DNA of 64,000 nucleotides from positions 1-64,000 of the forward strand of contig CAIOAO010000006.1 in NCBI GenBank assembly GCA_903855985.1. The letters run 5' to 3'. Below are positions 43,275 to 47,800 of this stretch, piece after piece. Numbering within the stretch: the first letter of the stretch is position 1; every line of letters begins with the position of its first letter. A program made the position numbers and the translations under genes. Below the pieces are notes generated by a model. That model was not told the DNA's origin. It did no database searches and saw only the letters and a program-made list of their open reading frames with translations. This stretch comes from an uncultured Opitutia bacterium. Lineage in GTDB: Bacteria > Verrucomicrobiota > Verrucomicrobiia > Opitutales > Opitutaceae.

Positions 43275-45821
43275 TCACCTCCACTCGTGTCTCGGATACC
43301 GGCGGGAGAGTTCGGCTTTGATCTTCGGGTACTGTTCCCGCCAGAAATTCGTCAGGTCGTCCGTCACCTGAATCGGCCGCTGGTTGGGCGCGAGCACTTC
43401 GATCTTCACTGCGACCCGTCCGTGACCGAGCGTGAATTTCCCCTCGATGCCGTAGAGTTCCTGGATGCGCGCGCTGAGCACCGGCGGTCCCTCCCTGGCG
43501 TAGGTGATCCTGGAGCGGCGGCCGTTGGCCATGGTCAGTTTTTCCGGGAGATAGTCGTCAATCACGGCCAGCTGCTCCGCGGTCAGCCAGTCCTTGAGAA
43601 TGGGCATCACGGGCTTGTCCTTGATATCACGGTAACCGAGTTCGCCGTAGCAGATCTGCTCGATGAGCGTCGCGCGGTCGGCGTCGGTGAGCGGATTCAC
43701 CTCCAGTTCGGGAAACCATTCCGCCAGCCGGTTCACCCGGGTGATCCACTGCTCCACCGCCTCGTCCCACGCCTCCAATTTCAACCGCCCGGCGAGCACT
43801 TCCTTCGTGAGCAGCGCCGCCGCCTCGTTGAGGGGCGCCTCGTCGCTGCTGGACTTCGCCTCGAGCACGAGGTCGCGGAAACGCCGTTCACGGCGCGAGA
43901 CCACGCGCTTGATGGACTCGTCATAGGTCACCGCCCGCACCTCGCGGTAGTCGTCCGGAAAGATCTCCTTCAGCCACGCTTCCTCGATCGCCGTCGCCAG
44001 CGAGAGCAGCGTGTTCACCTCGCCCCCGCGCCCGCCGACCTCGCTGATCTCGGCCGCCACGAACAGCGGCGCCTGCTGGATGCCGCTCTCCCGCGCCAGC
44101 AGGCCCTTCCGGTTGTGCACCAGCTCGCAACGCAGCGTCCCGCCATCGAGCCGCTTCGCCAGCTGGTCCGAGAAGCCCGCGAGCACACACTTCCGTATTT
44201 CCGTTCCATCCGTGCGCCGCTCGGTCACATCGAGCCCCTCCTTTTCCGCAATCGCCAGGAACTGCTCAAACAGTGGACCGACCTGCCGCGCACCTTGGGC
44301 GTGAATTCCCAACCGCCGGCACGCATCGAGCGAATAGTTGGCCTTGTCGGCGTAGCGCCACGCGCGCATCAGCAGAAAAAAATCGCTCTCGTGTTCCTCC
44401 CCCAGCGTGTCCTCGCGCGCCTGTTCGACCTCCTTCGACCCGCCGCGCAGGAGGAAATTCCGCCCCTGCGTCAACGCGGCCATCAGCGCCACCGGACGCA
44501 CACAACCGCGCTCCTGGGCCGCGAGGAACATCCGCGCATACCGCGGGTGCACCGGGAAGCGCAGCATGGTGCGGCCGAGTTCGGTGATCGTGCGCTTCCC
44601 ACCGGCCAGCGCGCCCAGGTCCGCCAGCAGTGTCTCCGCCCGCTCGAGCGCCTTCGGCTCGGGTTTCTCCAGCCAGGGGAAATTCGCGATGTCATCGATC
44701 CCGCTCGCCTTGAGCGTGAGCACCACCTCGGACAAATCGAGCCGCTTGACCTCGGGCAGCTCCTGCGGCGCCCGTTGTCCGTGTTCGCGTTCCGTCCACA
44801 ACCGCACGCACACCCCGGGCGCAGTGCGGCCCGCCCGGCCGGCGCGCTGGTCGGCGCTCGCGGCGGAAATTTTCTCGATGAGCAGCGTGTTGATGCCGCG
44901 GTGCGGATCGAACCGCGCCACCCGGGCCAGGCCGCAGTCGATCACCGTCGTGACGCCATCGATGGTCAGCGAGGTCTCGGCGACGTTGGTCGAGACGATG
45001 ATCTTCCGCGCCTCGTACCGCGCCACCGCCCGGTCCTGCTGCTCCGGCGGCAGTTCGCCGTGCAAGGGAAAGGTCACGAACTCCCGCAATGCCCGGTTGC
45101 CCTGGATCGCCTGTACGGTCCGGCTGATCTCGTAGGCACCCGGCATGAAGACGAGCATGTCGCCGGACGATTCCCCGGCGACGCGCTCGCACTCGCGCGC
45201 GGCGATCTCCCAGACCGGCTCGTTGTCGAAGTTCACCGACTTCGGCAGATACTCGATCCGCACCGGGAAACTCCGGCCCTGCGAAACGAGAATCTCGCAC
45301 GGTGCGAGGTAAGTTTTCAGCAATCCGGTGTCCAGGGTCGCGGACATCACGATCAGTTTCAGGTCCGGGCGCGTGGTCTGCTGGAGCTGCAGGGCCCGCG
45401 CGAGCGAGATGTCGCCGTAGAGATGCCGCTCATGAAATTCGTCGAAGACGATCGTGCTTACCCCGCGGAGCGCCGCATCGAAGGACATCTGCCGGAGCAG
45501 AATTCCCTCCGTCACAAAACGGATGCGCGTCTTCTCGCTCAAGCGTGACTCCAGCCGGATCTGGTAACCCACCACGTCGCCCAGCGGCGTCCCCATTTCC
45601 TCCGCCACGCGCTTGGCCAGCATCCGGGTTGCGAGCCGACGCGGCTGCAGGACGACCACCTCGCCCCGCTCGCCCAAAAGCCCGTGCTGCAACAACATCT
45701 GCGGGATCTGCGTGGATTTACCCGAGCCGGTCGGGGCCTGGACGATCAGCCGCCCCGATGTCCGCAGGGCGGCGGTAACGGCAGACTCAAGCTCGTAGAT
45801 GGGCAGATCGCGGGGCGACAT
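43275..45821 (-). CDS. hrpB: ATP-dependent helicase HrpB
   Basis: 848 residues, DEAH/RHA-type helicase. Walker A APTGSGKSTQIPQ near residue 32, DEFHERHLYGD (motif II variant with DEFH), SATLDT, and QRAGRAGRTAPGVCVRLW (motif VI), followed by the HA2 and HrpB C-terminal domain ending RRYPRHEWR. The role in bacteria is poorly defined, linked to RNA metabolism. The start MSPRDLPIYELE at 45821 is the conventional HrpB N-terminus; upstream frame sequence is heptad repeat DNA. Confidence 0.94.
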   Translation of the reverse strand: MSPRDLPIYELESAVTAALRTSGRLIVQAPTGSGKSTQIPQMLLQHGLLGERGEVVVLQPRRLATRMLAKRVAEEMGTPLGDVVGYQIRLESRLSEKTRIRFVTEGILLRQMSFDAALRGVSTIVFDEFHERHLYGDISLARALQLQQTTRPDLKLIVMSATLDTGLLKTYLAPCEILVSQGRSFPVRIEYLPKSVNFDNEPVWEIAARECERVAGESSGDMLVFMPGAYEISRTVQAIQGNRALREFVTFPLHGELPPEQQDRAVARYEARKIIVSTNVAETSLTIDGVTTVIDCGLARVARFDPHRGINTLLIEKISAASADQRAGRAGRTAPGVCVRLWTEREHGQRAPQELPEVKRLDLSEVVLTLKASGIDDIANFPWLEKPEPKALERAETLLADLGALAGGKRTITELGRTMLRFPVHPRYARMFLAAQERGCVRPVALMAALTQGRNFLLRGGSKEVEQAREDTLGEEHESDFFLLMRAWRYADKANYSLDACRRLGIHAQGARQVGPLFEQFLAIAEKEGLDVTERRTDGTEIRKCVLAGFSDQLAKRLDGGTLRCELVHNRKGLLARESGIQQAPLFVAAEISEVGGRGGEVNTLLSLATAIEEAWLKEIFPDDYREVRAVTYDESIKRVVSRRERRFRDLVLEAKSSSDEAPLNEAAALLTKEVLAGRLKLEAWDEAVEQWITRVNRLAEWFPELEVNPLTDADRATLIEQICYGELGYRDIKDKPVMPILKDWLTAEQLAVIDDYLPEKLTMANGRRSRITYAREGPPVLSARIQELYGIEGKFTLGHGRVAVKIEVLAPNQRPIQVTDDLTNFWREQYPKIKAELSRRYPRHEWR

Positions 45822-45829
45822 CGGCGCCC

Positions 45830-45923
45830 AGTTGAAAGTTGAATGGGGAAAGTTGAAAGTCCAGAGACGGACAGCCCTTTGAGGGCCCGGCGGCATTCAA
45901 CTTTCACCCTGCGTCTTTCAACT
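45830..45923. repeat. Facing heptad repeat arrays (AGTTGAA type) upstream of hrpB
   Basis: Left arm: AGTTGAA, AGTTGAA, TGGGGAA, AGTTGAA at 45830-45857. Right arm: TTCAACT, TTCACCC, TGCGTCT, TTCAACT at 45896-45923, the inverse of the same unit. Between them lies a perfect GCCCT/AGGGC hairpin with a TTG loop (45874-45886). The arms can fold into a long imperfect stem in the 5' leader of hrpB. Confidence 0.65.
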
Positions 45924-45940
45924 CTGGCGCGTCCAGTGCC

Positions 45941-46011
45941 GGTGAATAACCGGTGAGCCGGATTATCCCCAAGTTATTCACCGAGGGGCGTGGTGAAGAA
46001 GTTGTGGAGAA
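45941..46011. promoter_or_regulatory. Cluster of near-consensus DnaA boxes
   Basis: Four 9-mers each differ by one base from the DnaA box TTATNCACA: TTATTCACC (minus strand, 45941-45949), TTATCCCCA (45963-45971), TTATTCACC (45974-45982) and TTCTCCACA (minus strand, 46003-46011). Four such sites in 71 bp is far above chance in GC-rich DNA. No AT-rich unwinding element and no dnaA, dnaN or parAB gene is near, so this is more likely a DnaA-binding regulatory or titration site than a proven origin. Confidence 0.4.
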
Positions 46012-46199
46012 CAAAGCCTTCACTTCCGGAACCGGCGTCACAGGTTTGTCACGTTCCTTGATAGAACAGTCGCAGCGCGGCGGCCTGAAAAACCCGCCGG
46101 ATGCACGACTGGGATAATCCCGGGCGACCGGGGAATGGTCGGTGGCAGCTGGTGCCGCCGTCCCCTTCAAGCCGCGTTAGCGGTTTGATAGGCAGATAT

Positions 46200-46918
46200 C
46201 ACCAGCTCCTCTGGCCGGAGTCGTGTCCGGCCGGTTTTCACGAATCAGGAGCTGAGCGGCCAGGCGCGATCAGAAACCGCGTCCAAGCCGAGTCAGGCCC
46301 ACGGGCCGTTTCGACCCGTGCGCCGACACAGTTACCCCAGAGGGTTATGGTTGCTACTGTGCAGACCAGAACGCAGTCGCGTTTCCCGGCGGGACAACCC
46401 CCGCCAAAAGGCCCGGTCCGTTTACGCGGACAGGGCGCGCAAGGGAGAGGCGGCGGCGGGGAGTGAGCGGGCCCGGCAAAGCCCGTCAACCTCCTCAATG
46501 GGGCAGCGTGAAAAAGCACGCCGCCACACTGCAAAAGCGAACGCAACCTGAGAGTTAAGAGGTCAGACCCGTAACGCAGGGCCAACGGCCAGCCAAAAGC
46601 TGGCGCCGTCCCCGTGGTAACGGTGCCGACGCGAAGTAAGATTGCAGACGTGTCCGCACCACGTCCGGCGCGCCGCTCCCGGCAGGGGGCGACCGAACTG
46701 GGCGAAGAGGCCTCACTCAAAAGATCCCGGCCGGCAACGGCCAGGACGGTCCCGCCATGAGACCGAAACATCCGCATGCCGCGGAGAGTGGCGTCGGGAA
46801 GCACACAGCCCGCGAAAGCGAGCGCGCCCAATCGTGTGCGGCCGGGAAAGAGCGCGTGGCGAACGCCCACCCCCAAAATTTGGCCTCGGGACCGCAAGGT
46901 CCCGGGGCCATTTTTTTT
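46200..46918 (+). ncRNA. Candidate large structured non-coding RNA
   Basis: About 0.7 kb with no credible reading frame but dense hairpins: GGCCGGA/TCCGGCC (46213-46232), CACGGG/CCCGTG (46300-46320), CACAGT/ACTGTG (46327-46361), GGCGGG/CCCGCC (46388-46405), GTCCG/CGGAC (46416-46431), GCGTG/CACGC (46506-46521), GCCAGC/GCTGGC (46588-46604), GACGTG/CACGTC (46647-46665), GGCCG-GCAA-CGGCC (46729-46742), and GCACAC/GTGTGC (46801-46839) enclosing CGC-GAAA-GCG. Several loops are GNRA or A-rich, as in folded RNAs. It ends in a 12-bp terminator with T8. Hallmarks of RNase P, tmRNA, SRP RNA, 6S RNA and group I or II introns were not found. The 5' end is uncertain. Inference from structure only. Confidence 0.55.
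46882..46918 (+). terminator. Strong Rho-independent terminator of the candidate ncRNA
   Basis: GGCCTCGGGACC pairs with GGTCCCGGGGCC (12 bp, one G-U) around a GCAA tetraloop, followed by A and eight T. It is the best terminator in the window and is oriented to end a plus-strand transcript coming from the gene-free region to its left; the next gene starts 63 bp further on. Confidence 0.92.
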
Positions 46919-46981
46919 AGCCGCCCGGGCACGCGGTCCTTGCCGCGCCGCCCCTCACCGCGTTGGCTCGCCGCCCTGCCC

Positions 46982-47800
46982 ATGTCCAAGTCCCCCACCT
47001 CCTTCCCCCTCTGGCCCGACCGCCCCCCCGGCGCCCTCGGCGACCAGCTCCAGGATCGCCCCACCCTGACCAGTTTCCCGCCCACCGCGAAACCCACCGG
47101 GGCGGGCATCATCGTTTTTCCCGGCGGCGCCTACGGCATGCTCGCCCCCCACGAAGGCGAAACCTACGCCCACTGGCTCGCCGCCCACGGCATCCATGCC
47201 TGGGTACTGCAATACCGCCTCGGCCCCCATGGCTACCGCCATCCGGCCATGCTCCATGATGCCGCGCGTGCCGTCCGCACCGTCCGCCACCTCGCCCGCC
47301 AGCAAAAACTGGATCCCGCGCGCATCGGCGTGATGGGCTCCTCCGCCGGCGGCCACCTCGTGGCGACCATCATCACCAAATTTGACGCCGGACAGTCTGG
47401 CGCCGCCGATCCCATCGAGCGCGAGAGCAGCCGGCCCGACCTCGGGATCCTGTGCTATCCGGTTATCACGATGCAGGAGCCGCACGCGCACATGGGCTCG
47501 CGGGAGAATTTGCTCGGTCTTAACCCCGGTCCCGAGTTGATCGACGCGCTCTCCGCCGAGCTGCACGTAAAGCCGGACACCTCCCCCGCCTTCATCTGGC
47601 ACACCGTCGCCGACAACGCCGTGCCCGTTGAAAACGCGCTGATCTTTGCCGCGGCCCTGCGCCAGGCCGGAGTGCCCTTCGCGTTGAGCCTGTTCGAAAA
47701 CGGCGTGCACGGCCTGGGCCTCGGCAACCCCGCCCAGCCCGCCCCGCCGTGGGCCAACGACTGCCTCTTCTGGCTGCGCGAGCGCAAATTCGTGGCCTAG
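46982..47800 (+). CDS. Alpha/beta hydrolase, acetyl esterase-like
   Basis: 272 residues without a signal peptide. Oxyanion region FPGGAYGMLAPHEGE, nucleophile serine in MGSSAGGHL (near 120), acid in VADNAVPVENAL and histidine in NGVHGLGLG. This is the pattern of small carbohydrate/xylan acetyl esterase-like hydrolases of the BD-FAE type. Probably removes acyl groups from sugars; exact substrate unknown. Start at 46982 follows the ncRNA terminator. The stop overlaps the convergent RDD gene by 4 bp. Confidence 0.87.
   Translation: MSKSPTSFPLWPDRPPGALGDQLQDRPTLTSFPPTAKPTGAGIIVFPGGAYGMLAPHEGETYAHWLAAHGIHAWVLQYRLGPHGYRHPAMLHDAARAVRTVRHLARQQKLDPARIGVMGSSAGGHLVATIITKFDAGQSGAADPIERESSRPDLGILCYPVITMQEPHAHMGSRENLLGLNPGPELIDALSAELHVKPDTSPAFIWHTVADNAVPVENALIFAAALRQAGVPFALSLFENGVHGLGLGNPAQPAPPWANDCLFWLRERKFVA

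Follow-up and report, generated by a model that had tools for sequence, protein, structure and literature searches.

A full-length MISL RNA in an Opitutaceae genome, with a conserved 5' domain, long-range pairings, and candidate DnaA boxes upstream

MISL RNA between hrpB and an esterase gene

In the window (the whole 64-kb stretch of DNA analyzed here), hrpB (PF08482) and an alpha/beta-hydrolase gene (PF07859, PF20434), both assigned by Pfam and the latter referred to here as the esterase gene, flank a region in which cmscan (Infernal against Rfam) matched the MISL RNA family, RF03079, at 46112-46867 of the plus strand. The match scores 529.1 bits (E value, 3.2e-161), against a gathering score, the curated cutoff of the family, of 274.6 bits, and it takes in model positions 1 to 751 of 751 without being cut off. 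At gathering scores, we found only MISL RNA and one tRNA in the whole 64 kb, and MISL RNA is present as a single copy in its own genome. The features of the locus, including those predicted in the sections below, are as follows.

45941-45949, minus strand: DnaA-box-like TTATTCACC, one mismatch to TTATNCACA
45963-45971, plus strand: DnaA-box-like TTATCCCCA, leading member of a direct pair with 11-bp spacing
45974-45982, plus strand: DnaA-box-like TTATTCACC, second of the direct pair
46003-46011, minus strand: DnaA-box-like TTCTCCACA
46018-46046, plus strand: putative sigma-70-type promoter region, from position-specific conservation in 83 and 50 upstream sequences
46053-46067, plus strand: hairpin GTTCCTTGATAGAAC, conserved in relatives and at the predicted 5' end of the RNA; its loop pairs with 46198-46201; outside the Rfam model
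46068-46072/46106-46110 (spanning 46068-46110), plus strand: helix P0, inner GGCGG-CCGCC; outside the Rfam model
46112-46867, plus strand: MISL RNA core, full RF03079 model
46059-46062/46198-46201, plus strand: pairing a, 5' loop to core; strong covariation at 46062-46198, almost no variation in the remaining pairs
46149-46153/46365-46369, plus strand: pairing b, CTGGT/ACCAG; covariation
46221-46225/46239-46243, plus strand: pseudoknot c, TCGTG/CACGA; covariation
46349-46354/46543-46548, plus strand: pairing d, GGTTGC/GCAACC; covariation
46529-46534/46642-46647, plus strand: pairing e, CTGCAA/TTGCAG; covariation
46753-46757/46789-46793, plus strand: pairing f; covariation
46882-46918, plus strand: intrinsic terminator, with a T run after a GC-rich hairpin (46882-46909); conserved in relatives

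The first-pass annotation had taken this region for a possible undescribed large structured RNA on account of its style, and we agree with the resemblance to large ornate RNAs; the hairpins, GNRA loops, and terminator it named are all found where it placed them. These many hairpins, the GNRA loops, and the terminator are what would favor an undescribed class, to which we give next to no probability, since RF03079 is matched over its full length and far above the curated cutoff. The question of whether the RNA is undescribed is thus answered in the negative: it is virtually certain that 46112-46867 belongs to the MISL family, which is already catalogued in Rfam and of which this locus is a full member. 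The family reportedly comes from a 2017 study of 224 candidate structured RNAs. Our literature search found no biochemical function of MISL RNA, which serves as a chemical-mapping example in the accessible portion of the Ribonanza preprint. In the accessible text of PMC12286853, OLE, GOLLD, and ROOL are described as large ornate bacterial RNAs that have poorly understood functions and form homo-multimers by cryo-EM. MISL is likewise large, ornate, and poorly understood in function, and none of these three families had an Rfam match in 45500-47500 (E values up to 5) or in the window (gathering scores).

The copies that we compared are 142 distinct full-length ones, taken from 182 loci. By a division of our own, they comprise 84 with scores >540 for a profile in which the window's family is heavily represented (the first, or high-scoring, group) and 58 others, which form a heterogeneous second group. 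In these homologues, MAFFT alignment and parsimony revealed compensatory changes in the helices. hrpB lies upstream in 60 of the 84 high-scoring copies (76 of which have >600 nt of upstream sequence) and typA downstream in 51 (66 with >1400 nt downstream), the window's copy being one of the 84, and neither gene was found beside the 58 other copies at ≥45% identity, most of which nevertheless keep the 5' motif, the terminator, and the boxes. Pfam scans of recurrent neighbors in the second group identified a peptidase M23, a PLP-dependent enzyme, a Rho-like factor, and a tRNA synthetase, while two further recurrent neighbors have no Pfam family. We considered a conserved neighbor as a functional partner of the RNA and rejected it, as no neighbor is common to both groups.

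Mechanical open reading frames are present on both strands, including one of 219 amino acids on the minus strand, but they are not conserved: any open minus-strand frame over that stretch is kept in only 6 of 83 high-scoring relatives, and the length of the stretch differs by a non-multiple of three in 58 of the 83. Because of these unconserved frames and lengths not divisible by three, a coding gene on either strand is unlikely. The proposal of a plus-strand folded RNA between hrpB and the esterase gene, apparently noncoding and ended by a terminator, is upheld.

MISL matches were found in 34 of 61 genomes of a family sample, all over the cutoff, in 28 of 132 genomes of an order sample (20 over the cutoff), and in 30 of 387 genomes of a phylum sample (27 over the cutoff), the larger samples being scored with stricter filters, which lose weak matches. 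There is mostly one copy per genome, with two full-length copies in each of three genomes (G266, G432, and G511), and there were no matches in fourteen well-known control genomes. A core motif was found in 113 stretches of a species-genome collection; among the 80 of the 113 titles listed, 78 are Verrucomicrobiota or lineages taken as such and one is labeled Proteobacteria. The latter is a metagenome-assembled genome (L127, RFVF01000036.1) with MISL RNA, perhaps on a misbinned contig. Within its own family, MISL is patchy, being absent from 27 of the 61 sampled genomes, some of which are rated 99-100% complete, so not every member of the family depends on it. We examined 17 MISL-less genomes, all of which have hrpB, and detected no MISL remnants beside this gene (nhmmer, E values up to 10); a core-motif match with 3 mismatches occurs in 6 of the 17, and a reversed-pattern control gave 9 of 17.

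This patchy spread would fit a phage- or plasmid-borne RNA like GOLLD and ROOL, whose genes are assigned to prophages and phages in the accessible text of PMC12286853, and part of a MISL RNA is present in one IMG/VR contig. Unlike those two RNAs, MISL was matched by blastn in none of 50,697 phage and 72,556 plasmid records, and the hrpB-MISL-typA arrangement is common to many high-scoring copies, which argues against such an origin; we regard it as very improbable. The IMG/VR contig (L182) is 2347 bases long, contains a partial MISL RNA, and is perhaps a chromosomal fragment mistaken for viral.

Ends and fold of the RNA

Upstream of Rfam position 1, relatives have in common a 15-nt element, GTTCNTTGAWAGAAC, which is near-invariant at most positions. 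It begins 59 to 62 nt before model position 1 in all 83 first-group sequences and 54 to 63 nt before it in at least 40 of 50 second-group sequences, and among the 140 copies whose upstream sequence is long enough, 7 lack it at the search stringency used. Helix P0, which ends just before Rfam position 1, varies in sequence among relatives while its pairing is kept. Ahead of the 5' hairpin, the heterogeneous second group has TTG at positions -35 to -33 and a TANNNT-like element at -13 to -8, counted from the hairpin; the corresponding first-group elements are weaker, and the match in the window itself is weak. From the conserved 5' element and the promoter-like elements preceding it, the RNA would start near 46053, and it is probable that it begins at this position, about 60 nt upstream of the Rfam core.

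At the other end, a terminator-like element is found within 100 nt after the core in 139 of the 142 copies, compared with 12 of 121 control stretches. The full gene therefore probably extends from about 46053 to 46918, some 866 nt. The first-pass annotation had predicted an RNA of 600 to 700 nt beginning at 46200, which is too short and misses about 150 nt, since 46112 is the first position of the core and the conserved RNA reaches back to about 46053. The terminator-like element also bears on the idea of a cis-acting, riboswitch-like leader of the downstream esterase gene, an arrangement that the position of the RNA upstream of that gene on the same strand would permit. A leader of this kind is hard to reconcile both with an RNA that is closed by such an element and with the scarcity of the esterase gene, which is downstream in just 23 of the 84 high-scoring copies and none of the 58 others, and we consider it highly unlikely.

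The 866 nt of 46053-46918 fold at -427.9 kcal/mol, compared with -366.4 ± 8.3 kcal/mol for 20 dinucleotide shuffles (z score, -7.4). Covariation was scored on 137 extended copies aligned by sequence only with MAFFT, namely, those of the 142 full-length copies that have the 5' motif. The strong covariation stacks include the Rfam helices, P0, the terminator, and six long-range pairings (a to f). Among the 89 sequences <90% alike that were used for the pairing statistics, with helices found and tested on one and the same alignment, each of these six pairings is paired in 96 to 100% of cells, falling to ≤61% when the partners are slid by 1 to 3 columns. Each has 8 to 25 double compensatory changes by simple parsimony on the tree, and each is ≥95% paired in either copy group taken separately. 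Two Rfam helices served as controls; their cells are paired at 96.8% and 98.1%, and double changes affect all 6 pairs of the one and 5 of the 6 pairs of the other, respectively.

The percentage paired was not equaled in any of 500 shuffles for P0 or any of the six pairings. The number of pair types was equaled in 332 shuffles for pairing a, 191 for c, 92 for f, 19 for P0, and none for b, d, or e, and the number of pairs with double changes was equaled in all 500 for a, 223 for P0, 81 for c, 8 for e, 7 for f, 4 for b, and 2 for d; for the Rfam control helices, these numbers were 0 and 16 by types and 106 and 0 by double changes. Changes on the tree to or from a nonstandard pair made up 55 of 124 for P0, 16 of 46 for c, 12 of 57 for e, 8 of 43 for d, 5 of 22 for a, 2 of 34 for b, and 0 of 25 for f. 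P0 is paired in 98% of cells in the high-scoring group and in 73% in the other group, and pairing b shows no double change inside the high-scoring group. Taken together, the shuffle and tree-change results make b, d, and e the strongest of the six. Pairing a rests on its one covarying pair and on near-invariant complementary letters; since it would join the loop of the 5' hairpin to the core, it is evidence for the 5' domain being part of the RNA.

None of the six pairings appears in the Rfam structure line of RF03079. Covariance models cannot represent pseudoknots, so the authors of the family may have known some of them. Thus, this locus matches the whole of the Rfam model, to which it and most relatives add a terminator, a conserved 5' domain about 60 nt long, and the six long-range pairings.

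DnaA-type boxes upstream of MISL

The region ahead of the putative promoter contains a cluster of candidate DnaA boxes, a box being defined here as a 9-mer with at most one mismatch to TTATNCACA. Both TTATNCACM sites of the 64 kb sit at this cluster, and 4 of the 12 window sites with at most one mismatch fall inside 45941-46011. The number of boxes in the window is not unusual (it was equaled in 16 of 100 shuffles for TTATNCACM and in 24 of 100 for sites with at most one mismatch), so the signal in the window is their clustering. An inverted pair, GTGAATAA-N{1,30}-TTATTCAC, is found here at 45942-45981 and only once in the whole genome; it occurs in 3 of 13 genomes, one apiece and always at MISL. 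Direct box pairs are present in 6 of the 13 genomes and are at MISL in two of these. L284 and L285 (G378 and G238) have the direct pair TTATTCACAAGTTATCCAC at a site other than MISL, possibly another DnaA target.

Two or more boxes lie 60 to 230 nt before model position 1 in 115 of the 136 loci with enough sequence, whereas stretches of 170 nt drawn at random from these loci reach this number in 0.17% of cases; the other 21 loci have at most one box, and 7 of them lack boxes altogether. When the 290 nt upstream of three RNA genes were compared in the same genomes, two or more boxes were found for 20 of 21 MISL loci, 0 of 21 RNase P RNA loci, and 0 of 20 tmRNA loci; one RNase P RNA locus with a short flank (L314) has one box upstream. 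In G020, there is one box in the 190 nt upstream of MISL, and larger clusters occur elsewhere in the genome; a second pair of DnaA-type boxes, with TTGACA further on, is located about 4 kb past MISL in this genome (L281, C1 about 1440143). The upstream boxes are absent at one of the two G432 copies (L039).

The commonest spacing between same-strand boxes is 11 bp in both copy groups, and 12 bp is also seen. According to the accessible text of PMC11317965, Escherichia coli DnaA, which also regulates transcription, prefers boxes 2 or 3 bp apart, corresponding to 11 or 12 bp from start to start. Double boxes with these 2- to 3-bp gaps are described there upstream of a transcription unit at purH, polA, and mutH/DARS2. 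The arrangement at MISL is similar in spacing and in lying upstream of a transcription unit; it differs in that the E. coli pairs precede protein genes and this one a large noncoding RNA, and in that the candidate boxes of the high-scoring MISL group are mostly TTATTCACC. Closely spaced DnaA-type boxes, above background and upstream of a putative promoter, are thus found where they would be looked for in a DnaA-regulated unit.

We also asked whether the boxes might be those of hrpB. In 17 genomes of the window's family, picked from those unmatched in the phylum and family samples, no box was found closer than 300 nt to the point at which the hrpB match begins (15 of the 17 are clean tests, since in L204 and L205 the match begins inside hrpB), and boxes further off were present in 3 of the 17, at 468, 884, and 1305 nt. 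Boxes are also present at MISL copies for which hrpB was not found nearby. Boxes belonging to hrpB itself are disfavored by their absence at hrpB without MISL and their presence at MISL without hrpB, and they appear to go with MISL instead.

A chromosomal replication origin was considered for the boxes and rejected, as MISL lies off the GC-skew minimum in three genomes: at 2.45 Mb in G035 (minimum at the record start), 1.67 Mb in G126 (about 4.1 Mb), and 1.44 Mb in G020 (about 0.86 Mb), with the skew sampled coarsely in 20 stretches of 20 kb each and refined for G035. The dnaA gene is apart from MISL and far from the skew minimum, at 2.29 Mb in G035 and 5.61 Mb in G126. No cluster of three TTATNCACA-like boxes was found in about 316 kb around the G035 minimum.

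The cluster might be a site for DnaA titration or reactivation, like datA or DARS, that merely stands beside an RNA not regulated by DnaA. Such a site would suit a cluster that stands out from the genome background and keeps no fixed distance to the skew minimum. It would suit less well a cluster that follows MISL across lineages with differing neighbors, is not seen ahead of hrpB in the MISL-less genomes examined, and sits directly upstream of the -35 region, a place suited to a transcription factor, and we hold it to be rather unlikely. We judge equally doubtful a MISL gene regulated by some other transcription factor with a TTATNCACA-like site. The commonest box of the high-scoring group, TTATTCACC, is one letter off the E. 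coli consensus, and this dominance, with the lack of a matching cluster near the G035 skew minimum, makes it a putative DnaA box for this family and leaves room for another protein. Against this, relatives use exact TTATTCACA, TTATGCACA, and TTATCCACA, and the same-strand spacing of 11 to 12 bp is the geometry of double DnaA boxes.

A possible link between MISL RNA and replication

The reading that we prefer, and think reasonably probable as a whole, is a stand-alone MISL gene whose transcription would be tied to DnaA through the upstream boxes and whose RNA would act in trans. That MISL is a stand-alone, trans-acting gene is very probable in our estimation, and control of its transcription by DnaA seems to us only slightly better than an even bet. 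The paired DnaA-type boxes before the gene suggest that MISL may be made in step with DNA replication. Our narrow literature search found no earlier mention of a link between MISL and DnaA.

In such a scheme, RNA polymerase would start near 46053 from a sigma-70-type promoter, and DnaA at the closely spaced boxes would activate or repress this promoter, so that the MISL level would track DnaA-ATP and the replication cycle. The released RNA would fold into a compact, many-times-knotted particle, alone or with protein, which would act in trans. As a best guess, its role would be linked to replication, nucleotide supply, or growth-rate control. A fuller proposal, which we offer tentatively and consider less likely than not, is that DnaA on conserved double boxes sets MISL transcription, that the knotted RNA is an effector of the replication or growth cycle in Verrucomicrobiota, and that the 5' domain, which the Rfam model leaves out, docks by its loop into the core.

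MISL has been an orphan, a large and strongly conserved RNA family with no role found in our literature search, to which the present analysis adds the probable extent of the complete gene, six pairings, and a candidate for its regulator. The 5' domain, the pairings, and the terminator define a full-length molecule for structure and binding work, in which constructs cut at the Rfam boundaries would be without the 5' domain. The conserved candidate DnaA-box promoter, in turn, provides a concrete handle on the biology of this family, namely, whether the level of MISL RNA follows replication.
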